DNA of 64,000 bases, taken from NCBI GenBank assembly GCA_902595425.1, contig CACJPV010000001.1, positions 62,001-126,000 of the forward strand. The letters run 5' to 3'. Below are positions 36,946-63,239 of the stretch, piece after piece. The DNA is from an uncultured Alphaproteobacteria bacterium. Lineage in GTDB: Bacteria; Pseudomonadota; Alphaproteobacteria; HIMB59; GCA-002718135. Position numbers and translations under genes: made by a program. The notes beneath the pieces were generated by a model that saw nothing but the letters and a program-made list of their open reading frames with translations, was not told where the DNA came from and did no database searches. The stretch's first letter is position 1. Each line of letters opens with the position of its first letter.

Positions 36946-38379
36946 ATGAAACTTTATAAAAATTATATTGACGGTAAATGGATAGAGAGTGAATCTAAAG
37001 AAATTATTCAAGTTGATGATCCTGCAACAGGTAAAATTATAGGAGAAATTTCTTGCGCAAAAAAGAATGAAGTAGACCTTGCAGTATCTGCAGCAAAAGC
37101 AGCATTTAATTCAAGAGTACTAGTTGACATGCCTTTGCTCGAAAGAGCAAAACTGATGCACCGCATTGCAGATGAAACAAGAAAGATAGCTGATGAAGGT
37201 GGAAAAATGCTTTGCTATGAAAATGGTAAAATGTTGGGTGCAGCAATAAAAGAATTTAATGATGTAGCTGATATGTTTGATTATTATGCTGGTCTGACTG
37301 ATAAACTTGAAGGTAAAACAATTCCTGTCTCACCTACTATTTTTGATTATACTGTTTTAGAACCATTTGGTGTTTCTGCACATATTGTTCCATGGAACTT
37401 TCCAATATCAATGGTTGGTAGATCTCTTGCATGTTCCTTTGCAACAGGAAATTCAACAATTGTAAAAACTGCTGAACTAACACCTCTTTCGGCAACATTT
37501 TTTGCAAAAGCAATTGAAAATGCAGGTGTTCCAAACGGGCTTGTAAATATAATTTGTGGATATGGAAATGAAGCTGGTTCTTATTTAGTATCACATCCAG
37601 ATGTAAATCATGTTGTATTTACTGGTTCGGTTTCTACAGGAAAAAAAATATTACACTCATGTGCAGATAAAACAATTCCAGCAGTAATTGAGCTTGGTGG
37701 AAAATCAGCGGGCATAGTTTATGAAGATGCTGATCTTGATCAAGTTATAGACAGTGCACGTCATGGTATTTTTGGAGTTGCTGGTCAAATATGTACAGCC
37801 ATGTCACGATTGGTAGTTCATAAATCAGTTAAAAATGAATTAATAGAAAAACTTGTGGATTTGAGTAAGTCTCTTAAAGTTGGGCCTGGGTACGAAAAAG
37901 ATACAGGACTAACACCAATTATTTCAGAAAAGCAACTTGAAAAGGTTGAGGGTTATGCTCGTTCTGGTGTTCAGCAAGGGGCAGAAGCTGTTCATGGTGG
38001 AAAAAGAGCTGATCGTGAAGGATATTTTATGGAAGCGACAGTTTTAAATAATGTCAAACAAGACACATCAGTAGCTAGAGAAGAAATATTTGGTCCTGTT
38101 TTATCAGTTCTTGAATATGAAGATCAAGATGAGGCAATTCATATTGCTAATGATACTGATTTTGGATTAGGTGCGGGAGTTTTCACTAAAGATCTAAAAA
38201 AAGCATCATGGACTGCAAGTAAATTAGAGTCAGGACAGGTTTATGTTAATAAATGGTTTGCAGGCAATCATGCAACTCCATTTGGAGGTTACAAACAATC
38301 AGGCTATAGTAGAGAAAAAGGTGTAGATGCCCTCAAATCATATCTTCAAGTTAAAAACGTGGGAATTAGTTTAGACTAA
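36946..38379 (+). CDS. NAD(P)-dependent aldehyde dehydrogenase
   Basis: A 477-residue aldehyde dehydrogenase with a full set of marks: PWNFPISMVGRSLACSF, FTGSVSTGKKI, the general base Glu in ELGGKSAGIVYEDAD, the nucleophile Cys in GQICTAMSR, and the tail PFGGYKQSGYSREKG. Similar proteins oxidise amino- and betaine-type aldehydes or succinate semialdehyde. It sits between the TRAP operon (divergent) and a convergent FAD amino-acid oxidase and polyamine-type ABC importer, which suggests an aldehyde from amine breakdown, though this is inference. The stop overlaps that of the convergent gene by four bases. Confidence 0.88.
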   Translation: MKLYKNYIDGKWIESESKEIIQVDDPATGKIIGEISCAKKNEVDLAVSAAKAAFNSRVLVDMPLLERAKLMHRIADETRKIADEGGKMLCYENGKMLGAAIKEFNDVADMFDYYAGLTDKLEGKTIPVSPTIFDYTVLEPFGVSAHIVPWNFPISMVGRSLACSFATGNSTIVKTAELTPLSATFFAKAIENAGVPNGLVNIICGYGNEAGSYLVSHPDVNHVVFTGSVSTGKKILHSCADKTIPAVIELGGKSAGIVYEDADLDQVIDSARHGIFGVAGQICTAMSRLVVHKSVKNELIEKLVDLSKSLKVGPGYEKDTGLTPIISEKQLEKVEGYARSGVQQGAEAVHGGKRADREGYFMEATVLNNVKQDTSVAREEIFGPVLSVLEYEDQDEAIHIANDTDFGLGAGVFTKDLKKASWTASKLESGQVYVNKWFAGNHATPFGGYKQSGYSREKGVDALKSYLQVKNVGISLD

Positions 38380-39617: not shown

Positions 39618-40514
39618 TTATCTCGGTTTAATACCGCGCAATCGTTCTGATCTTCTTCTTAATAATTCTACAGTAGTAAGTAAGAATATAGATAGAGCTA
39701 CCAGACAAGTAGCCATACATAAAATTACAGGACTAATTTCTTGTCTAATTCCAGCCCACATTTGTTTTGGTATGGTTAATTGATCCAAGCTGGCCATAAA
39801 CATAACTATAACAACCTCATCAAATGAAGTTATAAAAGCAAACAACGCTCCAGAAATTATACCTGGCAAAATTAACGGCATTATAACTCGGAAAAAAGTT
39901 TTCACAGGTCTTGCTCCAAGACTTTGGGCAGCTTTAACCATGTTCATATCAAATCCAACTAAGGTTGCTGTTACAGTAATCACTACAAAAGGTGTAGCCA
40001 AAGCCACATGAGCAAGAATTACTCCAGTAAAAGTATAAACTAAGTTTATTCTTGCATAAAAAAAGAACATTCCCGCAGCTGTTATTATTAGTGGCACAAT
40101 CATTGGTGAAATTAAAACTGCCATTATTAATCCTTTGAACGGCATATGAGGTCGACTTAATCCTAAGGCAGCAAGTGTTCCAAGGGCAGTTGCAATTACA
40201 GTTGCAATAATACCAATAAAGAAACTATTTACTGTTCCTATCATCCATTTATTTGAACAAGGAACTGTAGATGAAACAACATCAGCGCTGCAATCTCCTA
40301 TCATATTTCTATACCATCTAAAGGACCAAGCTTCAGGATCAGGTGGCCATGCTAACATTCCATCGGTAAATACCATGAAAGGTGATACGCTAAATGAAAT
40401 AGGTACAATAGCAATCAAAGGAGCAACAAGGAAAAAGAAAACAACTCCACAAAAGAATAAGTATAAGTAATAGTATGTTTTTTGAACAGGTGATGCGTAA
40501 CTTGGTAATGCCAT
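39618..40514 (-). CDS. polyamine-type ABC transporter permease (PotC-like)
   Basis: A 298-residue permease with six helices of the PotC type. The coupling loop for the ATPase is AAQSLGARPVKTFFRVIMPLI. A periplasmic loop with two Cys (GDCSADVVSSTVPCSN) follows the first helix, and SFDEVVIVMF lies in a late helix as in PotC. It follows the other permease after 2 bases and precedes the DadA-like gene by 6. Substrates of this class include putrescine, spermidine, opines and other cationic amines. Confidence 0.9.
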   Translation of the reverse strand: MALPSYASPVQKTYYYLYLFFCGVVFFFLVAPLIAIVPISFSVSPFMVFTDGMLAWPPDPEAWSFRWYRNMIGDCSADVVSSTVPCSNKWMIGTVNSFFIGIIATVIATALGTLAALGLSRPHMPFKGLIMAVLISPMIVPLIITAAGMFFFYARINLVYTFTGVILAHVALATPFVVITVTATLVGFDMNMVKAAQSLGARPVKTFFRVIMPLILPGIISGALFAFITSFDEVVIVMFMASLDQLTIPKQMWAGIRQEISPVILCMATCLVALSIFLLTTVELLRRRSERLRGIKPR

Positions 40515-40516
40515 AT

Positions 40517-41794
40517 CTATCCTAACTTAATATTATCTATTCCAACAATTTTATTATAAAGCCAATAGAAAACTAACATGACTGCAAGTAGTATAGCTCC
40601 TAAAGCTGCACATAAACCCCAGTTCAATGTAGTTTTAAGATGAAAAGCTATCCAGCTTCCAATTAATTTTCCATCTTTTCCTCCTACTAGTTCAGGAGTA
40701 ATAAAATAACCAATTGCTAAAACAAAAACTAATAGGCCTCCTGCGCTCATACCCGGTATAGTTTGAGGCAAATATACTTTCCAAAAAGCAAGTGCTGGTT
40801 TTGCGCCTAAATTTTGAGCAGCTCTCATATGACTTTTTGGTATTACCTTCATCACACTATAAAGTGGCAAAATCATAAAAGGTAATAGTATTTGAGTCAT
40901 TGCAATTAATGTTCCTGTTTCGTTATAAACCATTTGAAGTCTACCATCATCACTCAATACACCGAGCCATACTAGTACACCATTAATAACTCCTTTTTGT
41001 TGAAGCATCACAATCCATGCTGTTGTCCGAACAAGCAAAGATGTCCAGAATGGAAGAAGTACAAATATCATCAGAAGGTTACTGTAACGCAAAGGTAGGT
41101 TTGCTAATAAGTGAGCTACTGGAAAACCTAATATTAAACAAAAGAAAGTTACATAAACGCTTACTTTTAAAGTCTTAAACCATGTTTGAACATAAATTCT
41201 TCTTTTCTCATCCTGCATGATGACGTTTTGATCTTGATCATATGTTCGGTCAATTGCATTCCAATAATAAATTGGTGTCTGTTTATTTACCATTTGAGAC
41301 ATTGAGTACCAAAATGTTGGATCACCCCAATCTTTGTTTATCTCAATAAGGGTCTCTTTATAAGACTCAGGAACCATCCCTTTCCTTGTCATTTTTTTAA
41401 TTTCTCTAGAAGTTTTTTTAATCAAACTTTTCCAACCTGATTTAGAATAATTCATTCTAGTTAAAGCTCTACCAATTTGAATTTTCTCTCCAGTAGCTAG
41501 TTCTTCAAAAAGAGTTCGATATACTACTTCAGGTGGAAGCTTATCTTTTTCTCTATCCCATTTGTTGAACTCTTCAAATGTTTTTGGAAATACAGTATTG
41601 ATTTGAGCATCGTCTACACTTCTTAAAAGCATATCTCCAATAGGCATTACAAAAGTAACAAAAATAAAAAGCAGCAAAGGAAATACTAAAAGGAAAGCTC
41701 TTATTTTATTCTTTCTTTCGGCTTTTTTTAAACTTTGCTTAAGCGGAATACCATCAGTTGTAAGTAGCTGTGTAGTAGAAATAATAACCTCCAA
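40517..41794 (-). CDS. polyamine-type ABC transporter permease (PotB-like) with long periplasmic insert
   Basis: A permease of about 425 residues, longer than usual PotB (about 280) because roughly 130 polar residues sit between helix 1 and helix 2 (about 60-200). The remaining helices and the coupling loop AAQNLGAKPALAFWKVYLPQ are normal. The start is unclear: the longest frame begins with TTG, but that codon overlaps a perfect GGAGG. No ATG follows until within the first membrane helix, so an ATT 5 bases after GGAGG (41782) is a possible real start. The gene follows the binding-protein gene across an intrinsic terminator. Confidence 0.86.
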   Translation of the reverse strand: MEVIISTTQLLTTDGIPLKQSLKKAERKNKIRAFLLVFPLLLFIFVTFVMPIGDMLLRSVDDAQINTVFPKTFEEFNKWDREKDKLPPEVVYRTLFEELATGEKIQIGRALTRMNYSKSGWKSLIKKTSREIKKMTRKGMVPESYKETLIEINKDWGDPTFWYSMSQMVNKQTPIYYWNAIDRTYDQDQNVIMQDEKRRIYVQTWFKTLKVSVYVTFFCLILGFPVAHLLANLPLRYSNLLMIFVLLPFWTSLLVRTTAWIVMLQQKGVINGVLVWLGVLSDDGRLQMVYNETGTLIAMTQILLPFMILPLYSVMKVIPKSHMRAAQNLGAKPALAFWKVYLPQTIPGMSAGGLLVFVLAIGYFITPELVGGKDGKLIGSWIAFHLKTTLNWGLCAALGAILLAVMLVFYWLYNKIVGIDNIKLG

Positions 41795-41825
41795 ATTAAA
41801 AAGGCGAGAATAAATCTCGCCTTTT
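41793..41825 (-). terminator. intrinsic terminator between binding-protein and permease genes
   Basis: On the minus strand an 11-bp perfect stem (AAAAGGCGAGA and complement) with a 5-base loop is followed by TTTTTAATTT. It begins about 30 bases after the binding-protein stop and ends where the permease start region begins. As at tmoX, it probably limits read-through so that binding protein exceeds membrane subunits. Confidence 0.8.
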
Positions 41826-41855
41826 AGTTAAATTAATATTGTAACTTAATCAAGC

Positions 41856-42959
41856 TTAGTTACCCATCCATGCTGCATAACGCTCATTAATTTCAGCACC
41901 ATAATCAGACCACCATTGTGGATCACTTACGATCGAAACTTTTAAACGCTCAGGCGTATTAGGCATATGAGGCATAATATCTACACCACCTGGTCCCCAA
42001 GGCTCATTGTTTTGAATGATTGGAATACCAGAAGCTCTCATAGGTCCATAAGTAATATATTTTGCTTGTTCAGCTTGAGATTCAGGTGAAGAAGCATGCA
42101 TCATGAAATCAAGAGCAGCATCTCTGTTAGGAGCACCAGTAGTAAGACATAGATACTCTTGATCTAACACTTGACCTTCCCAAATATATTCAAAGTTTTC
42201 ACCTTCAGCTAGGTTAGCTGCACCAACACGACCATTATAGGCAATTGCCATTACAACTTCACCACTTTTTACTAATTCTAATGGTTTTGATCCTGAAGAC
42301 CAGAAAACAACGTGATCCTTGATAGTATCTAATTTAGCAAAAGCTCTATCAAGCGCACCAGTTTGGTTAGCTAGAACTGTAGGAACTGCCGTTGGCTTAA
42401 CACCATCAGCAACCATTGCTTTTTCAATTATACCAGTTGCCCAAGTATGGATACCTCTTTTGCCAGGGAATTTTTCCACGTCAAAAAAGTCTGCCATGCT
42501 GCTTGGCTTATCACCAGGGAAAGCATCTGGATCATAGAACACTACGTAAGTCCAGAAAATTTGTGGAACACAACAATCCCAACCAGAGTGATACTCTAGA
42601 CCATTGTTTTCCATATCTTCCAACATTGACTCACCGTCAGGTCCTGGAACAGAACTAGAAGCGATCTCAGATGAAATGTCTTCGAACAAACCTTCATCAC
42701 AACCAGTGATTGCATCACTTGGAAGCACGTCTACTAAGTCCCAAGTTACGTTACCACTTTCAACTTGCGCTCTTACTTCACCTAGACCGCCGTTATAGTT
42801 CTCAAATTGAATTGAGCTTGGATCTGAGTAAGTATCAGCATAAGCTTTTTGTTGACTTTCTGTGTAAGCACCACCCCACGAAGCAACCGTTACTGCTTTA
42901 ACAGCAAAAGATGAAACTAGAAGTGAAGCAAACAAGAATGCTTTAATAAATTTTGACAT
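41856..42959 (-). CDS. polyamine-type ABC transporter substrate-binding protein (PotD/PotF family)
   Basis: A 367-residue periplasmic binding protein with a Sec signal peptide (MSKFIKAFLFASLLVSSFAV, cleavage after VKA). The mature part starts TVASWGGAYTESQQKAY, a pattern of the family that binds polyamines, opines or other cationic compounds. A Cys-Cys pair (DCCVPQIFWTYVVFYDPD) is characteristic of this marine subgroup. Codon use is richer in G+C than its neighbours, as expected for a highly expressed binding protein. A 14-bp palindrome lies 22 bases upstream of the start. Confidence 0.9.
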   Translation of the reverse strand: MSKFIKAFLFASLLVSSFAVKAVTVASWGGAYTESQQKAYADTYSDPSSIQFENYNGGLGEVRAQVESGNVTWDLVDVLPSDAITGCDEGLFEDISSEIASSSVPGPDGESMLEDMENNGLEYHSGWDCCVPQIFWTYVVFYDPDAFPGDKPSSMADFFDVEKFPGKRGIHTWATGIIEKAMVADGVKPTAVPTVLANQTGALDRAFAKLDTIKDHVVFWSSGSKPLELVKSGEVVMAIAYNGRVGAANLAEGENFEYIWEGQVLDQEYLCLTTGAPNRDAALDFMMHASSPESQAEQAKYITYGPMRASGIPIIQNNEPWGPGGVDIMPHMPNTPERLKVSIVSDPQWWSDYGAEINERYAAWMGN

Positions 42960-42980
42960 ATGTTCCTCCTATTCGTTGGT

Positions 42981-42994
42981 TAATCTTAAGATTA
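42981..42994. promoter_or_regulatory. 14-bp palindrome upstream of the binding-protein gene
   Basis: TAATCTTAAGATTA is a perfect palindrome in the 116-base spacer between the ATPase stop and the binding-protein start, 22 bases before the start. A second, 10-bp palindrome (CTATCGATAG) follows at 43000-43009. They could be an operator pair for an internal promoter, but A/T-rich palindromes also arise by chance. Confidence 0.35.
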
Positions 42995-43075
42995 TATGTC
43001 TATCGATAGCCCCCTAATAACATGATGAAATTATAAAAAAAAGTACTAAAATACCGCAGAATACTTACAATAAAA

Positions 43076-44173
43076 CTAATTTAGAGGATCTAAAGCTCTT
43101 ATATCATCAGGATTCCAGTTAAGTTTAATAGAGTCTCCTTCATTATAGTTAAAAGATCCTTCATTTGGTACTTTAACAATAAACTCGTTATTTCCACACA
43201 CATCTAATCGAACCCTGATATGATCACCTAAATATATTAACTCTTCAACTTTTCCTGTGAATACATTTTCCCCGCTTCCATCTGAACCTAATGATACTCT
43301 TTCAGGTCTGACAGAGAGTTGAGTTTTATCTCCAACACCACCAACATTAACTTTAAGAGCTTTTACAATACCTGCTCCTTTTTCAAGTTCTACAGAACAA
43401 TAATTATTTTCCATACTCTTAATTGTTCCTGACATTCTATTATTCTCACCGATAAATTGAGCAACAAAAGAATTTTCTGGTTTTTCATATAATATATCTG
43501 GCGTTGATAATTGCTGCACAACTCCATCATTAAAAACTGCTATTCTATTAGACATCGTTAAAGCTTCACTTTGATCGTGTGTTACGTAAACGACTGTAAT
43601 TCCTATTCTGTCATGAATATGTTTGATCTCATATTGCATCTGTTCTCTTAAATTTTTATCTAATGCTCCAAGGGGCTCGTCCATTAAAACAAGTCTTGGT
43701 TCAAAAACAAGGGCTCTTGCCAGCGCAACTCTTTGTTGTTGACCTCCAGATAACTGCGCAGGAAAACGAGTACCAAAGTCACCAAGCTCAACCATGTCGA
43801 GAGCCTTTTGAACTTTTTCTTTAGTCTCTTCTTTTGATAATTTTCTAACTTCGAGTGGAAATGCTAAATTTTCTTGCACAGTCATATGAGGGAAAAGAGC
43901 ATAATTTTGAAAGACCATTCCAATTTCTCTCTCATATGGTGGGATTTTACTAATTGGCATTCCATCTAAAAAAATTTCTCCATTCGTTGGAGTCTCAAAT
44001 CCTGCCAACATCATAAGCGTGGTAGTTTTGCCAGAACCAGAAGGGCCAAGCATAGTTACAAACTCACCCTTGGCGATATCTAAATTTAGATTTTTAACTA
44101 CTAGCACTTCCCCATCGTAACTTTTGTCAATTTTTTCAAATTTAACAAAGGTTTTTTCTGACTCAAAATTCAT
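43076..44173 (-). CDS. polyamine-type ABC transporter ATP-binding protein (PotA-like)
   Basis: A 365-residue ABC ATPase with Walker A GPSGSGKTTTLMM, Q-loop VFQNYALFPHMT, signature LSGGQQQRVALARAL, Walker B LVLMDEPLGALD and switch His in YVTHDQSEA. The C-terminal third (about 245-365) is a TOBE-type regulatory domain (LSVRPERVSLG). It is the first gene of the importer operon: ATPase, binding protein, two permeases, DadA-like oxidase. Confidence 0.92.
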   Translation of the reverse strand: MNFESEKTFVKFEKIDKSYDGEVLVVKNLNLDIAKGEFVTMLGPSGSGKTTTLMMLAGFETPTNGEIFLDGMPISKIPPYEREIGMVFQNYALFPHMTVQENLAFPLEVRKLSKEETKEKVQKALDMVELGDFGTRFPAQLSGGQQQRVALARALVFEPRLVLMDEPLGALDKNLREQMQYEIKHIHDRIGITVVYVTHDQSEALTMSNRIAVFNDGVVQQLSTPDILYEKPENSFVAQFIGENNRMSGTIKSMENNYCSVELEKGAGIVKALKVNVGGVGDKTQLSVRPERVSLGSDGSGENVFTGKVEELIYLGDHIRVRLDVCGNNEFIVKVPNEGSFNYNEGDSIKLNWNPDDIRALDPLN

Positions 44174-44248: not shown

Positions 44249-45112
44249 ATGAATATTTTGGGCATAATATTTGCTTTACTTGCTGGTGTTTTTTTTGGAA
44301 TTATTGGTCCCATTACAAAAACTGCTTATAATCTAGGAGCCGGTATAGGCCTTGCTATCTTTTTACGATATATTGTTGCGTTAATAATAGTCTCTCCCCT
44401 AATTCCAAATCAACAAAACTTATTCAATATTTATAAAAATAATATACGTGATTTTTTACTGATCACTGTTGCCTCCATAATGCTAACCACAGGATTATTA
44501 ATTTCAGTTACATATATTAATGTTAGTCTAACAATAATAATATTTTGTACCTATCCAATTTTGGTCTTGTCGATATCTATTTTTATAACCAAAGAAAAAA
44601 TAAAAAATGTTATCAAATTTTTATTTTTTACAACATTTATTGGATTGTTTCTTGCATTAAGTCCCTCAACTGATGACTTAAAAATTGAAGGAATTATTTT
44701 TGCTTTGATTGCATCATTGGGTGCTGCAATCATGATAGTGACTAATCAAACAATGTCTAAAAAAAATATTTCCCCTATTCCAATCAATATTTTTATTAAT
44801 TTTTTTAACACAATATTCTTTTTTATTATTTTAAATTTATTCTACGAGATAGACACCGACATCAATCTCAATGCATTTTTAATTCTATTAATTCCTTCTT
44901 GTTCTTATGCAATTGCTTTATTTCTTCAATTACTTGCAATACCAAGAATTGGTCAAACGAATACAGCTTTATTTTTATATCTTGAACCAATAACAGGTAT
45001 ATTTGGAGCAGTAATACTTCTTAATGAGTCCTTAACTTCAATGCAGTTATTTGGTACTGCAATTGTCTTAATCAGTCTTGCATCTTCAACGTTTGTAACA
45101 AGAAGAACTTAA
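44249..45112 (+). CDS. EamA/DMT-family transporter
   Basis: A 287-residue protein with ten membrane helices in two EamA repeats; the first has FGIIGPITKTAYNLGAG and the second LQLLAIPRIGQTNTALFLYL followed by LEPITGIFGAVILLNE. It is divergent from the PotA-like gene and ends by a four-base stop overlap with an M19 dipeptidase gene. It may export amino acids or amines. The substrate is unknown. Confidence 0.86.
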   Translation: MNILGIIFALLAGVFFGIIGPITKTAYNLGAGIGLAIFLRYIVALIIVSPLIPNQQNLFNIYKNNIRDFLLITVASIMLTTGLLISVTYINVSLTIIIFCTYPILVLSISIFITKEKIKNVIKFLFFTTFIGLFLALSPSTDDLKIEGIIFALIASLGAAIMIVTNQTMSKKNISPIPINIFINFFNTIFFFIILNLFYEIDTDINLNAFLILLIPSCSYAIALFLQLLAIPRIGQTNTALFLYLEPITGIFGAVILLNESLTSMQLFGTAIVLISLASSTFVTRRT

Positions 45113-46086
45113 AAATGATTGGTCATAAATTTAAACCAGTTTTTTCCAGCTATTTTATTTGCAGTTTTTTCATTAATTCCATTTGAAATCATTTCAGTTA
45201 AAAAACTAGATAAGTCTTCTGGTTTAGAATACCACGATGCGGGTTTAGGCCAATTAGCATTTTTATCCTTTGACTCGCCATAATCAATTTTTTTAGTCCA
45301 TTTACCATTACGCATCCACATTACTACTTCATCTGGCCAATTAACGCATAAATCTGATCCTATACCAATGTTATCTTCTCCAATCATATTAACTAGTTGT
45401 TTAATCATGTCACAAAAATCTTCTAACTTACAATCTCCATGATTTTTTAAATGATACGGGTAGACGCTTAGACCAATAAAACCATTTTTATTTGCTAATT
45501 TTTTTAATACAACATCATCTATGTTTCTAATTGATTTATGAAAAAAAATTGGGTTTGCATGAGATATGGCCACAGGTTTTTTTGATAAATTAATAGCATC
45601 TAAACATGTTTGTCTTCCTGCATGACTTAAATCTACTATCATGCCTAGTCGATTCATTTCTTCAATCACCATTGCACCAAAACGAGATACGCCAGAATCA
45701 TTTTTTTCATAACATCCACCTGCTAAAGGTGTTTGATTATTGTATGTTAATTGCATGAAACGCAAACCTCGTGAAAAAAATTTTTCTACTAAAAAAATAT
45801 CATTTGCAATTGGTGCTGAATTTTGAAAACCATAAACGATACCAACTTTATTTTTTTCTTTTGCCACAAGTATGTCAGATGATTTTTTAACATGCATTAA
45901 AATATCATTATTTGATTGAATTAAATCATCCCAATAATTCATTTTCTCAAACGACTCATGAGTATCCTCCCAATATACTAAAGTTGCGTGAATAGCTGTT
46001 AAACCTCCTGCATGAGCTTTTTCAAATAAGTCTCTATTCCAATTTACATATTCAAGACCGTCGATGAGTATATTGTCCATTTCCAT
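45109..46086 (-). CDS. M19 (renal dipeptidase) family protein with altered metal site
   Basis: A 325-residue TIM-barrel protein of the membrane dipeptidase family. Later motifs are intact (RFMQLTYNNQTPLAGGC, MIVDLSHAGRQTCLDA, PVAISHANP, GIGSDL). At the N-terminus the usual DGHNDL motif, which provides two metal ligands, is replaced by DGLEYVNW, so the dinuclear centre must differ or be lost. This DGL-x-Y form appears to mark a separate bacterial subfamily whose substrate I do not know. It is divergent from an uncharacterised 569-codon ORF, with 20 bases between, and convergent with the EamA gene. Confidence 0.82.
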   Translation of the reverse strand: MEMDNILIDGLEYVNWNRDLFEKAHAGGLTAIHATLVYWEDTHESFEKMNYWDDLIQSNNDILMHVKKSSDILVAKEKNKVGIVYGFQNSAPIANDIFLVEKFFSRGLRFMQLTYNNQTPLAGGCYEKNDSGVSRFGAMVIEEMNRLGMIVDLSHAGRQTCLDAINLSKKPVAISHANPIFFHKSIRNIDDVVLKKLANKNGFIGLSVYPYHLKNHGDCKLEDFCDMIKQLVNMIGEDNIGIGSDLCVNWPDEVVMWMRNGKWTKKIDYGESKDKNANWPKPASWYSKPEDLSSFLTEMISNGINEKTANKIAGKNWFKFMTNHF

Positions 46087-46157
46087 ATATAATTTAACTT
46101 CTAATAGTGAAAAAAATGATAATTCACTATATATATTTGTATATGTTGCAACAAAGT

Positions 46158-47816
46158 ATGAATTCTTCAGAAATTATGACCCTTGATAAAATGGGCTCTA
46201 GATACCCTTCAAGGTTAAGTTTTTCTAGAAGCATGCTTAGAAGATTATTGTTTGATAATTGGAAAATTTCTAAATCAAAGTTTGATCTAGATGATAATGG
46301 TTATGGAACAGTTGTTTATGAAATTAAAATAAATAATAATATTTATTCTTTAGTTTGTTTTTCACAGCATCTTGATAGTGCTGACAGAAGTGACAGAGTA
46401 ATTGCAGAAAAATGGGATACTGCCTATTCTTTAATCAACGGAAAATTAGATGATGATGAACTTAATAGATTAAGAAAAAATGTACCACTTCAAGAGTCAG
46501 GGCGCAATTCTCCCAAAGAATTAATTTTAAGTAGAGCCAATAAAAGTGTTCGTTTATTTGAATATGTCGTCAATTGCTTATCTAATGGTAAGCAACCTGA
46601 AATTAATGAAATAAATAAAGTTGGATATCTCTTAAGAACAACGGCTGTTTACGGTAGTGGAAAATTTGGGCTATCAGACTTTGCAAATACTAAAGCAGTT
46701 ACTGAATTTAACCAACCATTTAGAGCTGAAATGCTTGCAGTTTATATTATAAGAGAATTTAGTGTTGAGTTGGTAGAACATGTAGCTAAAAAACAAAACC
46801 CTAGCAAAGCAATTACTCTTGAAAACAATATCAAACAACACTTAGGCATTGGTAATTCAACGGGTTTAGGGATGGCACCTTTCATCATTAAACATCCAAA
46901 ATTAATCAATAAGTGGATGAAACAGTATACTCATTCTCTAGATAATATCGTCAATAAAAATGTAGACGTAGAAAAACTTAATACTTATTTTCAATTACTT
47001 GAAAAAGCTCTTCTTTACTTAAGAGAGGTTACAACATTTGATGAATACCAAATTACAAAAAATTCAAAAACAGTTGAAGATTTAAAAAAATATATAAGTT
47101 ATATTAAAAAATTGCAAAAGGAAAAATTTACTAATTTAAAGTGGATTGATCTAATAAAATTTACCTCCAATAAATGTAATTATGATACGCAAGAAATTGC
47201 TAAGGTTCAGTTATTAGAACTTTATCCTGAAATTTCTGAAGAGTTGGCAGAAGATATGTCGGATGTTGAAGAGATGGGAATTAATGAGTCTCAAACTTTG
47301 AAACAATTAAATGCAATTATTGAAAAAAATTACCAGTGGGCTTTGAAAGTTGATTTTTCTAACAAAAATAACGATTACCTATTCTGGTATATTTCAGCAG
47401 CAAAACTCGAGCCAAGATTAGGTGAAAGATATAATGAAGAGGGTAGTGAACTGGAACAAAATCTTGGTATTGCAAAAATGGTTCAAAAACTTCACACATT
47501 AATACAAGAAGAAAATTTTGATTTATCTGTTGCTGAATATTTAGCTCTAAATCCTGAATTCAGAGGTATTATTAGAAGAATTCAATCTCTTGAACAATAT
47601 CCATTTGCAGAAGTACAAGACAATATTTTATCAAAAAAAACAATACCTATTAATATGCTAAGATTTAAATTATCTTTTTTTGGAGCAAATAGATATGACC
47701 CAAAATCAGATAGATGGCTTCGTGTGAGTTTTTTTTCAGGTGCTCCTTTTCTATCAACTTTAAATGCGAAGAATGTTGATAGCTGGGGTTTTGCAACGAT
47801 GAGTTCTTATAATTAA
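46158..47816 (+). CDS. conserved-looking hypothetical protein, about 552 aa, paired with a DUF3726-like protein
   Basis: I do not recognise a function. The protein (about 552 residues from the chosen ATG; the frame is open for 17 more codons back to a GTG at 46107) has no signal peptide or membrane helix. It begins with SEIMTLDKMGSRYPSRLSF and contains a run of basic and acidic helices. Distinct stretches include YGTVVYEIKINN, LVCFSQHLD, LRTTAVYGSGKFGLSDF and the C-terminal WLRVSFFSGAPFL. The next gene starts 3 bases after its stop with GTG, so the pair is almost surely co-translated. No Shine-Dalgarno sequence settles the start. It could be a new enzyme or a regulatory complex. Confidence 0.72.
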   Translation: MNSSEIMTLDKMGSRYPSRLSFSRSMLRRLLFDNWKISKSKFDLDDNGYGTVVYEIKINNNIYSLVCFSQHLDSADRSDRVIAEKWDTAYSLINGKLDDDELNRLRKNVPLQESGRNSPKELILSRANKSVRLFEYVVNCLSNGKQPEINEINKVGYLLRTTAVYGSGKFGLSDFANTKAVTEFNQPFRAEMLAVYIIREFSVELVEHVAKKQNPSKAITLENNIKQHLGIGNSTGLGMAPFIIKHPKLINKWMKQYTHSLDNIVNKNVDVEKLNTYFQLLEKALLYLREVTTFDEYQITKNSKTVEDLKKYISYIKKLQKEKFTNLKWIDLIKFTSNKCNYDTQEIAKVQLLELYPEISEELAEDMSDVEEMGINESQTLKQLNAIIEKNYQWALKVDFSNKNNDYLFWYISAAKLEPRLGERYNEEGSELEQNLGIAKMVQKLHTLIQEENFDLSVAEYLALNPEFRGIIRRIQSLEQYPFAEVQDNILSKKTIPINMLRFKLSFFGANRYDPKSDRWLRVSFFSGAPFLSTLNAKNVDSWGFATMSSYN

Positions 47817-47819
47817 TTT

Positions 47820-48497
47820 GTGAGTTACTCGTATTATGAAGTATACACAAATGCTAAAAGAGCATTTTCAGGCCTTGGTTTTCCCTATGGAGCTGATGAG
47901 GATGCAGCATTTATAATTAGTTGGTTAGAGGCATTCGAATTAAAAGGTATCCAATTATTTTCTAATATTCAAAAAAAAATTGATGGTAATTTTAATGGGG
48001 CGTTAGAAAATAATAAATTAATTAGCAAAATTGATTTAAAAAAAAGATCTAGCCTCATGATCGGGCCAGGTTTGATTGATCTATTAAATTTTCATACATC
48101 AAAAAAAAATGAAATAAAAATAGAAATACAAAATTGCTCTGATCCTCTTTTTTTGATACCACTTTTGTACAGAAGTATTAAGAAGAATATTTTTTCAAAA
48201 ATTACTAATCAAAATAAAACTTATGCAGTTTTAGATAAAAATGAGATTTTCATTCATGATAATTTAAAAAATAATCATTGTGCAAATTTTATTTTAAACC
48301 TGTCCACAAATGAATATCAAATACCGAATGGAGAAAAGACTTCAGATTATAAAATATTAAATATAAATTTATCAAAAGGACTAAGTCCCAAGCAGTCTAG
48401 CTGGGATAATATTTCAGATTTAGCATTTAGAACGTATGTTCCTGAATCAGAAGAATCTAGGGAAAAAGGAGCTGGCGGAGGTGATGCTAATGATTAG
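47820..48497 (+). CDS. DUF3726-like protein, 225 aa
   Basis: A 225-residue protein starting with GTG. The N-terminal part (SYYEVYTNAKRAFSGLGFPY and GADEDAAFIISWLE) resembles the DUF3726 family as I recall it; no function is known. The rest is rich in Asn and Lys with little motif content, ending in a flexible Glu/Gly tail (REKGAGGGDAND). It is coupled to the preceding 552-aa gene. Oligomerisation with that protein is likely from the tight pairing but not shown. The following 165 bases to the sox genes hold no gene I can support. Confidence 0.75.
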   Translation: MSYSYYEVYTNAKRAFSGLGFPYGADEDAAFIISWLEAFELKGIQLFSNIQKKIDGNFNGALENNKLISKIDLKKRSSLMIGPGLIDLLNFHTSKKNEIKIEIQNCSDPLFLIPLLYRSIKKNIFSKITNQNKTYAVLDKNEIFIHDNLKNNHCANFILNLSTNEYQIPNGEKTSDYKILNINLSKGLSPKQSSWDNISDLAFRTYVPESEESREKGAGGGDAND

Positions 48498-48695
48498 GAG
48501 TCTATTCTCTATGCTACTTAGTTGAGGGTAAATAGTAAAACCATTTTTTCAACAAATCGATATAGCACTCATTCTTGCTCTTTAATCTTTTAATTGGTAT
48601 ATTCTATTCAATTATATTAAATAACAAAATATCGTATATGTTATTATTTATTCAATCTTTAGTTGTTAAAAAATATGAAAATTAAAGGACTCAAA

Positions 48696-49118
48696 ATGTT
48701 AAAATATATTTTTTTAATTATTTCATTTATCTCAATATCTTTTTATAGCTATGCAGAGACCATAGAAATCGAAATGTTGAATAAACTTGGTAAAGAAAAA
48801 ATGGTTTATTCTATAAAAGTTGCAAAGATAGATATTGGTGACACAATTATTTGGAAATCAGTAGACAAAGGACATAATGTTCAATTTGTAGAGATGCCAG
48901 AAGGAGTTGAAAAATTCAAATCAAAAATAAACAAAGACGTAGAATATAAATTTGAAATTCCCGGAATATACTTATATGTATGCACTCCTCATAAATCGAT
49001 GGGTATGATAGGTTTAGTGGTGGTTGGAGATGACCTAAGCAATTTAGATAAGATTAAAAAAGCAAAAATGGGAGGTAAGTCAAAAAAAATATTTAAAGAG
49101 TTACTAAAAGAACTATAA
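48696..49118 (+). CDS. periplasmic blue copper protein (pseudoazurin/plastocyanin type)
   Basis: A 140-residue secreted cupredoxin. The signal peptide runs to SYA (about residue 20). The copper ligands are visible as His in DKGHNVQF and the CTPHKSMGM loop with Cys, His and Met, as in pseudoazurin. The ATG at 48696 is preceded by AAAGGA with good spacing; an upstream TTG frame is less likely. It heads the sulfur-oxidation gene row and may take electrons from a Sox cytochrome to the terminal oxidase. Confidence 0.85.
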   Translation: MLKYIFLIISFISISFYSYAETIEIEMLNKLGKEKMVYSIKVAKIDIGDTIIWKSVDKGHNVQFVEMPEGVEKFKSKINKDVEYKFEIPGIYLYVCTPHKSMGMIGLVVVGDDLSNLDKIKKAKMGGKSKKIFKELLKEL

Positions 49119-49154
49119 TTTTTTTTGAAAGACTGAATAAATTAGATTTTTCTT

Positions 49155-49517: not shown

Positions 49518-49596
49518 AATATTTGTTTGATTTGAATAAATTTAATATTAAATAATAAGTTAATTTTAACATTATTCATACTTTACAAGGATATTA

Positions 49597-50061: not shown

Positions 50062-50073
50062 TAAGGAGTAATT

Positions 50074-50400: not shown

Positions 50401-50402
50401 TT

Positions 50403-52314: not shown

Positions 52315-52345
52315 TTATTAAAGGTAATTATTTGAGAGTAACATA

Positions 52346-57020: not shown

Positions 57021-57587
57021 TTAACTGTCTATTACTTCATAACCAAATTGAGAAGCTGTCTCGAGCAAAATTTCCCAAATAGATAAAGCGAAACCTCTAG
57101 GAATTAAAAGTCTAAATTCTTTCTCACTAAGTCTAAAAAGTTTGACACTTACATGATGAATTGCTGAACTTGCTGATGAATGTATTGGAAAATTATCTAA
57201 TCGTAGATCAAGAGGTAAATGTCTATTAAGTAATATGTCACTTTTTTCACCTTTAATAGTAATTGAAGTAAAAGCGTGAGATAGCTCTAGTGATGTTCCT
57301 AAATTCTCTGGCAAATTAATAGTACTACCTAATAGCAACCATTTAGAAGGCTCCATTCTCCATAGTGAATTGTTGTTTAGTATTTTTCCTCTATTAAAAT
57401 CAATATTTTTTTGAACTCCTAATTGATCAGAAAAAAACTTTTCTACATTTGGTATTTCATCAGGCCATGCAGCAATTTGCTGAATTATAAGGTTCCGGTT
57501 TTCAAAGAGTATAATTTCAATTTTATCTTCAAAAGGATATTTTCCAATATTATACTTTTCTATAATTGCTGAATTTCTATTAAGCAT
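57021..57587 (-). CDS. sarcosine oxidase gamma-type subunit (SoxG/MgdD)
   Basis: A 188-residue protein related to the gamma subunit of heterotetrameric sarcosine oxidase, with LWRMEPSKWLLLG, the LELSHAFTSITIKGE stretch and the C-terminal RGFALSIWEILLETA. It shares the GcvT-like fold but has no cofactor. I took the ATG at 57587; the longer frame starts with TTG at 57611. The start overlaps the stop of the alpha gene by 8 bases. In N-methylglutamate dehydrogenase the matching subunit is MgdD. Confidence 0.85.
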   Translation of the reverse strand: MLNRNSAIIEKYNIGKYPFEDKIEIILFENRNLIIQQIAAWPDEIPNVEKFFSDQLGVQKNIDFNRGKILNNNSLWRMEPSKWLLLGSTINLPENLGTSLELSHAFTSITIKGEKSDILLNRHLPLDLRLDNFPIHSSASSAIHHVSVKLFRLSEKEFRLLIPRGFALSIWEILLETASQFGYEVIDS

Positions 57588-60537
57588 ACATTCTCTTACC
57601 TTCTGGATCAATCATATGAGGTGATACAACTTTTATTTCCATTTGTTTGTTTCTTACTGGATCTGCACCTATGAGTGTTATATCTTTCCACTTTTCAAGA
57701 CCTCCTCTAACAAACCCTATTCCAATCCAATGGCCTAACTCTGGCGAATGCGTAACTGACGTTATACGACCAACGCCCTGCCCTTTAATATTATTTTTTT
57801 CACAAACAATTGTGCCAGCATTAAAAGTTTCTTTTTCATTTATAGGGAAAAAACCAACTAGCATTTCTCTGTCATCCGCACTTAGAACTCCTCTTTTTCT
57901 CATAGCACTTCCAATGTAGGATTTTTTTGTTGATGCCATCTTTCCCAAACCAGCATCATCAATTGTTACTCTTCCATCAAGCTCAGCAGCAGTTACATGT
58001 CCTTTTTCAACCCTTAAAGCTCCTAAAGCCTCAAGACCATATAAACAACCATCATATTTTTGAGCACTTTCCCATAATAAGTCCATCATTCCATGAGCAT
58101 AATCAGACTCAATATACATCTCGTAAGCTAACTCTCCTGAGAAACTTATTCTAACAACTCTACATGGTGTGCCATCTTTGAGTTTAGTTTGTAGTACGCC
58201 CATGAAAGGTAAATTATCATTTGTAATTTCACTTGGATCAAAAACACATTCATTCAAAACATCTCGAGATTTTGGACCAGCGATTGCGGCACCTGCCCAT
58301 TGTTCAGAGACGCTTGTCACATTCACTTTTAGATCTGTCCATCTAGTTTGGAGTAATTCTTCTAACCATGACATCACTTTTGCAGCAGCTGCAGTTGATG
58401 TAGTCATAAAGTATTCATTTTCACCAAGTCTCCATGACGTACCATCATCCATCACAATACCATCATCGCGTAACATGATTCCATAACGTGCTTTACCAAT
58501 TGGAAGTTTAGCAAAGGGGTTTGTGTAAATACGATTTACGAGTTCTGTTGCATCAGGACCTTGAATAGCAATTTTACCCAGTGATGTAACATCACAAATA
58601 CCAACTGTTTTTCTAACAATTGTTGTCTCCCTAATATATGAATCACTTAATGTTTCATTTTTTTTAGGGTAGTACCAAGGTCTTTGATAAAGGCCAACCT
58701 CAATCATTTTTGCTCCATGATCAATATTCCATTGATGCATTGGTGTTACTCTTAAAGGCCTGAAATGCTTTCCAACATTTCTTCCTGTTAAAGCACCTAT
58801 TGGAACTGGTGTATAGGGTGGTCGAAAAACTGTTGTTCCAACTTGTGGAATAGTTTTATCTAGTTGTTCCGCCATAAGAGATAAACCAATTATATTGCCC
58901 ATTTTGCCTTGGTCGTTTGCCATTCCTAGAGTGGTGTATCTTTTTAAATGCTCAACAGAGATAAACCCTTCTCTGTGTGCTAACCTTACATCCTCAGCAG
59001 TTACATCATGTTGAAAGTCGACAAAACTTTTTGATGGAAATTTATTTGATTTAACTTCAAATAAAGGTTCTATCGGATTTGACCACCCCCCTACTGATGG
59101 AAAAGAAATTTCTTTTTTGTGTATGCCAAAAGTATTCATTGCTTCATTGGCACCAACAAAGCCTGACTCTATGCAATTCTTTTCATCCCAAATACCTTTT
59201 GCCGATCCTACAACAGAAATATTCTCTTTAATTTCTCCTGGAATGAAACATAAGTTTTCTTGATTCCATGTAGGTTTTATACCTCGGTGAGACACAAGAT
59301 TAACAATTGGTGACCAGCCTCCTGACATTAAAACTTGATCACAAATAATTGTATTTTTATTTGATAGATCTGTTGTTTTACAAATATCAATACCGTCAAT
59401 TTTTTTTCTACCATTAATACTGAATGGCAGAGTATTTAAATGAAGATCAATGTCTTTGGATAAATCATGATTGACATTTTCTCTTGAGTCTAAAATTGTA
59501 ACTTTTGAGCCTGCCTCATGCAATTCTTTAGCTGTTTGATATACAGAGTCATTATTTGTTGAGATGACAATATTATTTCCGGTTAAAACACCATATCTAT
59601 TTAAATAATGTTTAGATGCGTTTACAGTCATTGCTCCAGGTAAATCATTGTTATTAAATGCAATATGTCTTTCAAGAGCACCACTTGCTACAATGATATG
59701 TTTTGCTCTAATTGTCCAAAAACGTTGGCGAGGCAAATTATTATGAGGATTAGGCACATGATCAGTTACTCTTTCCAACGCTCCAATAATAGTATTATCA
59801 TAAATACCAAAGGCTGTTGTTCTGGGCATGACTCTAATACCACTGCTTTTTAGTTGAGTATTTAAAAGGTAAGGATCAAAATCTTTTTGAGATAAACTAT
59901 TTCCTCCAAGTAAAGAGTCCTGTTCAATTAAAATAACATCTAATTTATTATTAGCTATTTCTTGAGCTGCAGCAATACCTGCAGGACCAGAACCAATAAC
60001 AAGTACATCACAAAAATCATTCGCATGTTCGTAGCTATCTGGATCAGGTTCTCTAGAAGCTTTACCCATGCCGGCTGCTTTTCGAATAATTTTCTCAAAA
60101 ATCATCCAAATTCCAGTGCCCTTACCCCATTCAAATGGCGGTAGACCCATAAATGTTTTATAATAAAAACCAGCTGCAAAAAAACGGCTTAAATAATTAT
60201 TTACACCTCCAAAATCAAAATTAACATTCGGAAATGCATTTTGACCTGAGGCGTTTAATCCAGAATAAAGTTCTTGTGTTGTTGCACGAACATTCGGATC
60301 TCTGCTACTTCCAGATCCAACAGTTACTAAAGCGCCTGACTCTTCAACGCCACAAGACATTACTCCTCGTGGACGATGATATTTAAAACTTCTACCAACT
60401 ATTCTAACATCATTTGCTAATAGTGCAGAGGCTAGAGAGTCACCTTCATATCCAAAATATTCTTTATTATCCCAATTAAAGCCCAGCACTTTTTCTCTGT
60501 TAATTTTACCGTAGTTTTCTTTTCTTAGCGATGTCAT
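57580..60537 (-). CDS. sarcosine oxidase alpha-type subunit (SoxA/MgdC)
   Basis: A 985-residue protein with three parts: an N-terminal ferredoxin-like domain (about 15-110; GRSFKYHRPRGVMSCG), an FAD/NAD-binding domain starting with VIGSGPAGIAAAQEIA near residue 180, and a C-terminal aminomethyltransferase domain (about 600-985; GIMLRDDGIVMDDGTSWRLG, FSGELAYEMY). It would move the methyl group, oxidised on the beta subunit, onto tetrahydrofolate. The length is normal for the family. The name SoxA here means sarcosine oxidase, not the sulfur cytochrome. Sarcosine or N-methylglutamate are the candidate substrates. Confidence 0.9.
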   Translation of the reverse strand: MTSLRKENYGKINREKVLGFNWDNKEYFGYEGDSLASALLANDVRIVGRSFKYHRPRGVMSCGVEESGALVTVGSGSSRDPNVRATTQELYSGLNASGQNAFPNVNFDFGGVNNYLSRFFAAGFYYKTFMGLPPFEWGKGTGIWMIFEKIIRKAAGMGKASREPDPDSYEHANDFCDVLVIGSGPAGIAAAQEIANNKLDVILIEQDSLLGGNSLSQKDFDPYLLNTQLKSSGIRVMPRTTAFGIYDNTIIGALERVTDHVPNPHNNLPRQRFWTIRAKHIIVASGALERHIAFNNNDLPGAMTVNASKHYLNRYGVLTGNNIVISTNNDSVYQTAKELHEAGSKVTILDSRENVNHDLSKDIDLHLNTLPFSINGRKKIDGIDICKTTDLSNKNTIICDQVLMSGGWSPIVNLVSHRGIKPTWNQENLCFIPGEIKENISVVGSAKGIWDEKNCIESGFVGANEAMNTFGIHKKEISFPSVGGWSNPIEPLFEVKSNKFPSKSFVDFQHDVTAEDVRLAHREGFISVEHLKRYTTLGMANDQGKMGNIIGLSLMAEQLDKTIPQVGTTVFRPPYTPVPIGALTGRNVGKHFRPLRVTPMHQWNIDHGAKMIEVGLYQRPWYYPKKNETLSDSYIRETTIVRKTVGICDVTSLGKIAIQGPDATELVNRIYTNPFAKLPIGKARYGIMLRDDGIVMDDGTSWRLGENEYFMTTSTAAAAKVMSWLEELLQTRWTDLKVNVTSVSEQWAGAAIAGPKSRDVLNECVFDPSEITNDNLPFMGVLQTKLKDGTPCRVVRISFSGELAYEMYIESDYAHGMMDLLWESAQKYDGCLYGLEALGALRVEKGHVTAAELDGRVTIDDAGLGKMASTKKSYIGSAMRKRGVLSADDREMLVGFFPINEKETFNAGTIVCEKNNIKGQGVGRITSVTHSPELGHWIGIGFVRGGLEKWKDITLIGADPVRNKQMEIKVVSPHMIDPEGKRMYA

Positions 60538-60818
60538 GATTTATTTTTTGTAATTTTTTCAATTTGTGGATGGCATGCTTTTACACTTTTTATTTCATGC
60601 GTAATCGTAGACCTCTCTACCTCTAACCATAGTCTACAACCATTGGTATGATGCCAAGTTTCTTTTTGCATACCTCTTATATTTTCGCGAAAGAAAATAG
60701 CCTTCGTCCACTCTGATACAGGTGCATCTAGTGCTGGATATTTTATAGAAGCATCACCACCGTAAGTGAACTCACTATGATCTCTTTCACCACAATATGG
60801 ACATTTAATTCTAATCAT
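60534..60818 (-). CDS. sarcosine oxidase delta-type subunit (SoxD/MgdB)
   Basis: A 94-residue zinc-binding subunit. The start MIRIKCPYCGERDHSEF gives the CPYC metal site and is followed by TYGGDAS, both standard for this family; His and Cys in HTNGCRLWL complete the site. The chosen ATG (60818) lies 1 base after the stop of the beta gene, while the longer frame overlaps that gene. It overlaps the alpha gene start by four bases, so all four subunits form one operon. Confidence 0.9.
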   Translation of the reverse strand: MIRIKCPYCGERDHSEFTYGGDASIKYPALDAPVSEWTKAIFFRENIRGMQKETWHHTNGCRLWLEVERSTITHEIKSVKACHPQIEKITKNKS

Positions 60819-60819
60819 A

Positions 60820-62085
60820 TCAACCGTGCAACTTTGGATCTGGACCAGCGCCACGCTCATCAATATTAATTCCTTTTTCAAATCTCTCTAAATTATGATT
60901 CTGTACATGTTTATGAGGTTGCTCATTAGCTATTAAATCAGCAAAATACCAGCCAGAGGCAGGGCTTGCTTTAAAGCCTCCATAATTCCATCCAGCATTA
61001 AGATATAAATTTGATAATGGCGTTTTGCATATGAAAAAAGAACCGTCCATAGACATATCCATCACACCCGCCCAATGTCGTAAAAGACGTATTCTTCCTA
61101 AACAAGGCATGATAGCCATAGCAGCCTCAGCACAATCTTGAACAATTGGCAGATTCCCTCTTTGGGCATACGACTTATACCAATCTAAATCTCCACCAAA
61201 AACCATACTACCCTTGTCTGATTGAGAAATATAAAAATGAGCTCCACCAACACCGTATACTACAACATGATCTAATAGAGGTTTAATAGACTCTGTAACA
61301 AAAGCTTGGAGTTTATGTGACTCAATTGGTAAATTTCCAAGACCTGCCATCTGCCATAAAACAGATGTATGACCTGCGACTGCAAATCCTACTTTTTTAG
61401 CTTTAATGGTTCCTCTTGATGTTTCTAAACTCTCAATATTATTTTGAGATCTCTTAACACCTGTTACTTCACAATTTTGTAATATATCAACGCCTAAACT
61501 ATCTGCAGCTCGTGCATAACCCCATACTGCTGAGTCATGTCTAGCATTACCAGCTCTTCTTTGTACTGCAGCACCCATTATTGGAAATCTTGCATCCTCA
61601 TAATTTAAATGTGGGATATTTTTTTTAAGAGTTTCTAAGTCCCATAATTCTGCATCCGTTCCATGTAAACGCATAATATTATATCTTCTTGCAGCTCCGT
61701 CTCTTGCACCTGGACTGTGAAAAAGCGAAACATGCGCTCTTTGACTAAACATCACATTATAATTTAAGTCATGACTTAAATCTTCCCATAGCTTTAATGA
61801 ATGCTCATAAAATTCATGATTACCTGGCATCATATAATTCGAGCGAACTATTGTTGTGTTTCGTCCAGCATTTCCACCGCCTATCCATCCTTTTTCAAGA
61901 ACTGCTATATTTTTTTTATTATGATTTTTTGCTAAATAGTAAGCAGTGGCTAAGCCATGAAGCCCTCCTCCTACTATGATGATATCATATTCTTTTTTTG
62001 GTACAGGATCACGCCATTGTCTGTCCCAACTTTTTTGGCCAGTAAAACCATTTTTAAATACATTCCAGGCATTAAAACGTGTCAT
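60820..62085 (-). CDS. sarcosine oxidase beta-type subunit (SoxB/MgdA)
   Basis: A 421-residue FAD enzyme of the DAO family. The dinucleotide motif is IIIVGGGLHGLATAYYLA, and GRNTTIVRSNYMMPGN is the family stretch near residue 74. His183 in ARHDSAVWGYAR corresponds to the residue that carries covalent FMN in heterotetrameric sarcosine oxidase. It oxidises the N-methyl substrate. It is the first gene of a beta-delta-alpha-gamma operon with an inverted repeat 41-59 bases upstream that matches the methylamine operators, favouring N-methylglutamate over sarcosine. This preference is inference. Confidence 0.9.
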   Translation of the reverse strand: MTRFNAWNVFKNGFTGQKSWDRQWRDPVPKKEYDIIIVGGGLHGLATAYYLAKNHNKKNIAVLEKGWIGGGNAGRNTTIVRSNYMMPGNHEFYEHSLKLWEDLSHDLNYNVMFSQRAHVSLFHSPGARDGAARRYNIMRLHGTDAELWDLETLKKNIPHLNYEDARFPIMGAAVQRRAGNARHDSAVWGYARAADSLGVDILQNCEVTGVKRSQNNIESLETSRGTIKAKKVGFAVAGHTSVLWQMAGLGNLPIESHKLQAFVTESIKPLLDHVVVYGVGGAHFYISQSDKGSMVFGGDLDWYKSYAQRGNLPIVQDCAEAAMAIMPCLGRIRLLRHWAGVMDMSMDGSFFICKTPLSNLYLNAGWNYGGFKASPASGWYFADLIANEQPHKHVQNHNLERFEKGINIDERGAGPDPKLHG

Positions 62086-62237: not shown

Positions 62238-63239
62238 ATGACAACTACCGATTTATCCCTGGAAGAAATATATAACTTAGCCTTAAAAACACTCAAATTT
62301 AATGGATGTGATGATCTTAACGCAGAAGCTGTTGCCCATACAGTAACGAATGCGGAAAAAGATGGAAGTGTATCCCACGGACTTTTTAGAATTCCTGGAT
62401 ATATTGCTTCTTTAAAAAGTAAAAAAGTTAAAGGTGATGCACGGCCAAAAAATAATTATCTAACTCAAAACGCAATAAGAGTGGAAGGTGATTATGGATT
62501 CGCCCCAACTGCTATTGGTGTAGGAATTCCAGCTTTAGTAGAGGTTACAAAAAAACATGGTGTAGGTGTTTTAACTATTACTAATACTCACCACTTTGCT
62601 GCTTTATGGCATGAGACCGAGGCTTTAGCAGAAAATGAATTAATTGGCATTGCATGTACTGCTTACAAACCAAGTGTTGCACCCGCTGGTGCAAAAAAAC
62701 CATTATTTGGAACTAATCCAATTTCCTTTGCTTGGCCAAGAAAAAATAAAACTCCTGTAGTTTATGATATGGCAACTTCAACAATGGCGATGGGTGAAGT
62801 ACAAGTTGCTGCAAGAGATGGTCATAAAGTTCCATTCGGTACTGGATTAAATAAAGATGGTGAAAAAACAGATAATCCTTCTGAAATAGCTAATGGAGGA
62901 GTTCTATTAACTTTTGGTGATTATAAAGGATCTGCGATTGCCATGATGATAGAGTTATTAGCAGCTGGATTAGTTGGTGACTTATTTAGTTTTGAAGCAA
63001 AAGAGGCTGACAATAATGATGGTGGTCCTGCACGAGGTGGTGAATTTATAATGGCACTATCTCCAGAATTAATTGCAGGTAATAATTGGAATGATCATGC
63101 AGAAAAATTTTTTGAACAAATGAAATCGCTTAAAGGTGTAAGACTACCTGGTGAGAGAAGACATAAAAATCGTTTAGATACTGGTTCAAGAAGTATTAAT
63201 ACAGAGTTAGTAAATAAAATTATTTCACTATCAGAATAA
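62238..63239 (+). CDS. Ldh2/malate-lactate dehydrogenase family oxidoreductase
   Basis: A 333-residue NAD(P)-dependent oxidoreductase of the Ldh2 fold. Conserved segments include DGSVSHGLFRIPGY, VLTITNTHHFAALWHE, FGTNPISFAWPRK, VYDMATSTMAMG and FGDYKGSAIAMMIELLAAG. The family includes ureidoglycolate, sulfolactate and delta-1-pyrroline/piperideine-2-carboxylate reductases. A convergent proline racemase/epimerase gene 5 bases from its end favours an imino-acid reductase acting in proline or hydroxyproline use. A good ribosome binding site (AGAGGAA) precedes the ATG. Confidence 0.86.
   Translation: MTTTDLSLEEIYNLALKTLKFNGCDDLNAEAVAHTVTNAEKDGSVSHGLFRIPGYIASLKSKKVKGDARPKNNYLTQNAIRVEGDYGFAPTAIGVGIPALVEVTKKHGVGVLTITNTHHFAALWHETEALAENELIGIACTAYKPSVAPAGAKKPLFGTNPISFAWPRKNKTPVVYDMATSTMAMGEVQVAARDGHKVPFGTGLNKDGEKTDNPSEIANGGVLLTFGDYKGSAIAMMIELLAAGLVGDLFSFEAKEADNNDGGPARGGEFIMALSPELIAGNNWNDHAEKFFEQMKSLKGVRLPGERRHKNRLDTGSRSINTELVNKIISLSE

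Follow-up and report, generated by a model that had tools for sequence, protein, structure and literature searches.

Described systems and the locus

Homarine (N-methylpicolinate), which has one carbon more than N-methylglutamate, is one of the nitrogen compounds that marine plankton produce in greatest abundance. A homarine operon, homABCDER, was reportedly described by Ferrer-Gonzalez et al. in 2026 (Nat Microbiol), with N-methylglutamate and glutamate as products. It is said to comprise a regulator and five enzyme genes, to be found in Rhodobacterales, SAR11 and others, and to involve N-methylglutamate dehydrogenase (Mgd). In the trigonelline pathway, ring opening is followed by an aldehyde dehydrogenase and a hydrolase. 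The ring opening of this N-methylpyridinium carboxylate is carried out in Acinetobacter by TgnA/TgnB (PMC8269262). Homarine itself accounted for up to 3% of particulate carbon on a North Pacific transect, where it was the most abundant compound measured (PMC8269262).

The locus analysed here lies in a 64,000-nucleotide stretch of DNA (the window) from an uncultured alphaproteobacterium, and is centred on a pair of adjacent genes, A and B, with a divergent gene for an M19-like amidohydrolase beside them. The A-B operon is probably homABCDER; the context of the A-B loci fits, including the link to Mgd, and homABCDER as a word had no match in the literature searched. The genus of the window differs from the reported operon in its divergent M19 gene, its Pot-type transporter and a sulfur block separating the Sox-type genes. 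Like the TgnA/TgnB pathway, the A-B route would open an N-methylpyridinium carboxylate ring and continue with an aldehyde dehydrogenase and a hydrolase. In contrast to TgnA/TgnB, A belongs to no Pfam or NCBIfam family and so is no recognised flavin oxygenase, B is Ldh_2-like, and there is no recurring reductase partner. Our main reading (probability about 0.6) is that A and B are two subunits of one enzyme and that, with the M19-like hydrolase, they make up the core of a pathway breaking down a cyclic N-methyl betaine, with homarine as the likeliest substrate. The homarine route has probably already been described (in 2026); the novelty appears to lie in the fold and the chemistry of A-B. The features of the window that bear on this are as follows.

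36946..38379, plus strand: aldehyde dehydrogenase (ALDH; PF00171), clustering with the operon ALDHs of other genomes
39618..44173, minus strand: Pot (polyamine-type) ABC transporter genes, a candidate uptake system where BCCT/OpuAC-type transporters are found elsewhere
45109..46086, minus strand: M19-like amidohydrolase (PF01244, E 1.8e-70), with substitutions at three of the five canonical metal ligands
46087..46157, no strand: 71-base spacer separating the divergent genes M19 and A, presumed to hold both promoters
46158..47816, plus strand: gene A, 552 aa, unclassified family, proposed core subunit of the ring-opening enzyme
47820..48497, plus strand: gene B, DUF3726 (PF12525), 225 aa, GTG start
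57021..62085, minus strand: SoxBDAG-type operon of four subunits with TIGR01372-01375 matches, candidate Mgd
62238..63239, plus strand: Ldh_2 family reductase, closest NCBIfam L-sulfolactate dehydrogenase, below cut-off

Gene pair A-B and its distribution

The reading frame of A runs from an ATG at 46158 to a stop at 47814-47816; an in-frame GTG lies upstream at 46107, and homology begins near 46158. The coordinates confirm the original prediction of two genes with a 3-base gap, the second starting with GTG. The proteins had also been described as free of membrane helices, and no membrane-like stretch was found in either of them (Kyte-Doolittle, 19-residue mean; maximum 1.13 in A and 1.17 in B). 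The three motifs that had been quoted as fitting no enzyme family, MTLDKMGSRYPSRLSF, TTAVYGSGKFGLSDF and WLRVSFFSGAPFL, are all within A, which has no match in Pfam or NCBIfam, even at E 1. B had been called DUF3726-like, and PF12525 places it there well above the curated cut-off (E 2.7e-10; 40.4 bits versus 22.1); the same profile matches 70/70 aligned B homologues.

Across 84,980 species genomes scanned, at least 564 A loci were found. The matches listed include Halomonas, Marinobacter, Vibrio, Photobacterium, Psychrobacter and Shewanella, and also Rhodobacteraceae, SAR11, rhizobia and Poseidonibacter. A is present in 36 of 61 whole genomes of relatives, and none was found in phage genomes. 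It is annotated merely as 'hypothetical protein' beside DUF3726, for which no literature was found. B is directly after A in 129/129 loci from alpha-, beta- and gammaproteobacteria and Campylobacterota, the commonest junction being a 4-base overlap. Sampling of 398 genomes of the phylum recovered 29 DUF3726 genes (in 27 genomes), every one with an A homologue directly upstream. In Poseidonibacter ostreae, A and B are fused in a protein of 802 aa (L133; A, residues 4-555; B, residues 563-800). Thirteen apparent cases of A without B were rejected, being over-extended ORFs or the fusion. A-B is an obligate unit, and the constant adjacency together with the one fusion makes a physical complex likely. 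Such a complex had been proposed from the tight coupling in the window, and the neighbourhood survey found the two genes always together rather than rarely adjacent in other genomes.

Predicted structures of A and B

Structure predictions were built from the loci without the rows of annotated plasmid records. The AlphaFold2 model of A is confident (pLDDT 91.2, pTM 0.91), and neither the PDB (best Foldseek hit at E 0.21, TM about 0.1) nor a viral protein library gave a match for it. Since these fold searches covered the PDB and viral proteins, a relative of A may be known from predicted structures alone. Comparison of A with PDB sequences, both as a single sequence and as a profile, gave nothing credible. 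V-ATPase subunit C (E 0.02) matched within a helical stretch only and was taken as chance, and a comparison of A with Ldh_2 showed no relation. Arginines 77, 80, 126, 132, 160, 420, 474 and 502 are invariant, the distant Sinorhizobium versions included, as are W86, D87, N128, S130, H246, E346, E354, W410 and E418; no His/Cys-rich metal site is found among the invariant residues.

For B (pLDDT 92.2), the top Foldseek matches in the PDB are Ldh_2-family chains (probability 1.00, TM by query 0.53-0.62). B thus shares the Ldh_2 (PF02615) fold with type 2 malate/lactate and sulfolactate dehydrogenases and delta1-piperideine-2-carboxylate reductase, but is about 110 residues shorter (225 aa versus about 335 aa), lacks the active-site Ser-His-Gly and has a Gly-rich tail of its own. 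PF02615 is matched by 12 of 70 B homologues, while the window B does not match it at E 1, and the N-terminal Ldh_2 profile match of B skips the GVASH stretch as a gap. Judged from the model, B is a shrunken malate/lactate (Ldh_2) dehydrogenase fold without the catalytic Ser-His-Gly, and is not classed as an active member of the Ldh_2 family. Its C-terminal tail (residues about 207-225) has the conserved consensus VPxSExSRxxGAGAGxxDND, with G217-A218-G219 conserved at 90-97%, and low model confidence despite this conservation. This is as expected of a tail that is ordered only within a complex, which may be the case here.

Neither protein had been placeable from the DNA alone, and prediction of the single proteins separates the two: the A model has neither a family match nor a clear structural match to a well-known enzyme in the PDB, so the claim stands for A, whereas it does not hold for B with its reduced Ldh_2 fold. 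It is quite possible that A-B is a new enzyme class, in which a fold absent from the PDB is combined with a dead Ldh_2 relative whose mobile Gly-rich tail would enter the active site of A, and in which an N-methylpyridinium ring would be opened without a recognised oxygenase cofactor domain. The A family, which spans hundreds of species (no fewer than 564 loci) and has no fold relative in the PDB, is a good target for work on structure and mechanism.

The M19-like protein

The M19-like protein belongs to PF01244 by sequence, but does not carry the full set of five metal ligands of the family (HxD, bridging Glu and two His). In the window, the canonical HxD is replaced with Leu/Tyr (DGLxYxNW) and the bridging Glu with Gln, while H155, H176 and D245 are kept. 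These replacements are common to the whole operon-linked subfamily. The closest solved relative is P. aeruginosa 2i5g, which aligns over nearly its full length and carries the same DGL....W and FQN replacements; its gene presumably has dimethylglycine genes as neighbours, with no A-B among them. An M19-like gene is found in 98 of 100 long loci, usually in the same operon and direction as A-B, and divergent only in this genus. A, B and M19 almost certainly act in one route. The original prediction had noted the divergent M19 gene with its altered active site, and had suggested that the three proteins could form one unknown route. The gene is indeed divergent, at a distance of 71 bases from the pair, and its product has lost the HxD and the bridging Glu. 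The single unit is borne out by the 98/100 loci; 'unknown' probably is not, as the companions point to the catabolism of a betaine, homarine being the likeliest, with N-methylglutamate as its end.

Genomic companions

A-B-M19 is usually accompanied by LysR, an aldehyde dehydrogenase, a betaine transporter and either Ldh_2 or RidA. Among the 100 long loci, ALDH is found in 75, LysR in 47 and BCCT in 43. The gene order is LysR, ALDH, M19, A, B, Ldh and a glycine-betaine ABC transporter (OpuAC-type) in Aminobacter, and SoxDAG-type, AraC/DJ-1 regulator, LysR, ALDH, M19, BCCT, A, B and Ldh in Ruegeria TM1040. In the sister family, an OpuAC-type betaine transporter, ALDH, M19, A and B follow one another with genes touching or overlapping. 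The genus of the window has the Pot-type transporter in place of BCCT. The window ALDH (36946..38379), whose closest NCBIfam is betaine-aldehyde dehydrogenase (below cut-off), is a probable pathway partner; operon ALDHs have their best scores against dioxovalerate and alpha-ketoglutarate-semialdehyde dehydrogenases, also below cut-off. No electron-donor partner recurring beside A-B was found in the neighbourhood survey.

Within 8 kb of A, an Ldh_2 gene is found at 20 loci, RidA at 20 and both at 0 (p 1e-4, from 64 loci reduced at 85% identity, with the significance inflated by shared ancestry); a recount by clustering gives 17, 23 and 0, respectively. As the Ldh_2 (delta1-piperideine-2-carboxylate reductases) and RidA families both act on imino/enamine acids, this mutual exclusion suggests one imine intermediate with two alternative exits. 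The window Ldh_2 (62238..63239) is a candidate for the N-methyl imino-acid reductase.

GcvT-type proteins, partly dimethylglycine-dehydrogenase-like (DAO + GcvT), are also seen near A-B at 15 reduced loci (L118:15747-18317 and 14 others), and never together with RidA.

Sox-type cluster and N-methylglutamate dehydrogenase

A SoxBDAG-type cluster adjoins A-B in Ruegeria TM1040, SAR11 and the genus of the window, and a Sox/Mgd-type cluster is near 22 of the 100 long loci only. In a tree of SoxA-like proteins, the A-adjacent copies of TM1040 and another roseobacter are in a clade with copies located 3-13 kb from gmaS, and the A-adjacent SAR11 copies join a gmaS-linked copy of the sister family with full support (100/100). 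SoxA-like proteins linked to gmaS are of the N-methylglutamate dehydrogenase type, and on sequence grounds the same assignment is made for those beside A in roseobacters and SAR11. Thus, the link of A-B to N-methylglutamate dehydrogenase that is expected of a homarine operon is found in these two groups. The SoxA-like clade of the window joins the larger group (95/93) on a long branch of 1.54, beside a second, unlabelled SoxA-like clade. This long branch and the low count of 22 loci speak against the homarine reading. The AraC/DJ-1 gene beside the TM1040 cluster parallels R. pomeroyi, where an AraC-type regulator is directly upstream of mgdABCD (PMC13390433). According to the same paper, which cites Ferrer-Gonzalez et al. 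2026, Mgd has a reported role in homarine catabolism (PMC13390433).

Elsewhere in the genus, the SoxGADB-type operon is either directly after A-B or behind an M24 gene, which is often present between the two. The M24 protein of the window (55803-56978, minus strand) is ectoine-hydrolase-like (DoeA/EutD), below the family cut-off. The window also has a sulfur-oxidation block (48663-54031; plastocyanin, thioredoxin, SoxYZ-like, SoxCD-type and SoxB-like) between A-B and the SoxGADB-type operon. A gmaS-type glutamine synthetase gene of methylamine assimilation (about 6522-7814, plus strand; G000:C1:68522-69814; TIGR03105, 614.8 bits, above cut-off) lies some 40 kb away from A-B.

Proposed route and alternatives

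In the proposed route, homarine would be imported by the betaine transporter, and A-B would dearomatise and open the pyridinium ring at the C5-C6 bond, giving an N-formyl-N-methyl-dehydroglutamate-semialdehyde-like product. Its aldehyde group would be oxidised by ALDH and its N-acyl (formyl) group presumably removed by the M19-like amidohydrolase. The N-methyl imino/enamine acid could then leave by either of two exits: reduction by Ldh_2 to N-methylglutamate, which Mgd would demethylate to glutamate, or hydrolysis by RidA to 2-oxoglutarate and methylamine. The substrate and the order of steps are those that we infer. Ring opening is assigned to A-B by elimination, since every accessory gene has a role and this step is left over, and an oxygenase role is likewise assigned by elimination, as no electron-donor partner recurs beside A-B. 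Overall, we consider it fairly probable that the A-B pathway is the homarine pathway. At the level of the organism, R. pomeroyi depletes homarine in a matter of hours (PMC12817926); counting against homarine, also at that level, its growth in one test was lower on homarine than on trigonelline (PMC8269262). If A-B is a marker of homarine use in streamlined ocean bacteria, it would allow flux to be followed in metagenomes.

The same catabolic unit might serve a betaine other than homarine, again N-methylated or cyclic (trigonelline, proline betaine, hydroxyproline betaine or a carnitine relative), with A-B-M19 handling its ring or amide. The BCCT/OpuAC transporters and ALDH specify only a 'betaine', and the divergent versions in Sinorhizobium and Neorhizobium lie among different genes (IclR, Pot-type ABC, class III aminotransferase, succinate-semialdehyde dehydrogenase and RidA), suggesting that substrates of more than one kind are handled by this module. 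However, the N-methylglutamate dehydrogenase link and the imine intermediate fit homarine better than proline betaine, the product of which is proline, and trigonelline, with its TgnA/TgnB route, also fits worse (PMC8269262), making another betaine rather unlikely at this locus.

More improbable is that the altered M19 enzyme does the key chemistry and needs A and B not as catalysts but as an accessory scaffold, chaperone or regulator. M19 accompanies A-B almost without exception (98/100), an M19 enzyme without three of its five metal ligands may need partners, and B resembles a catalytically dead Ldh_2. Nevertheless, the dozens of invariant residues in A, many of them polar or charged (R77, R80, D87, R126, R132, R160, H246, E346, E354, E418, R420, R474 and R502), are more typical of an active site, and the altered motif is shared with 2i5g, whose gene presumably lies apart from A-B. 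The position of the pair in the window, between polyamine-type transporter genes and the sulfur-oxidation block, had raised the question of a role in amine or sulfur metabolism unconnected with betaines. This is very improbable and was rejected: the congeneric genomes L058 and L060-L063 have no such sulfur block at the corresponding position and the companions are betaine-type across phyla, so that the neighbourhood survey largely refutes it.

The S. meliloti plasmids (L173:9941-21165 and L174) carry a divergent A'-B'-M19' trio with about 27% identity, neighboured by IclR, a Pot-type ABC transporter, a class III aminotransferase, succinate-semialdehyde dehydrogenase and two RidA genes. Candidate S. 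meliloti locus tags had no match in the literature searched. The trio is apparently the same module adapted to another substrate, and such a version in Sinorhizobium may point to a broader use of the module on other compounds of plants or plankton.
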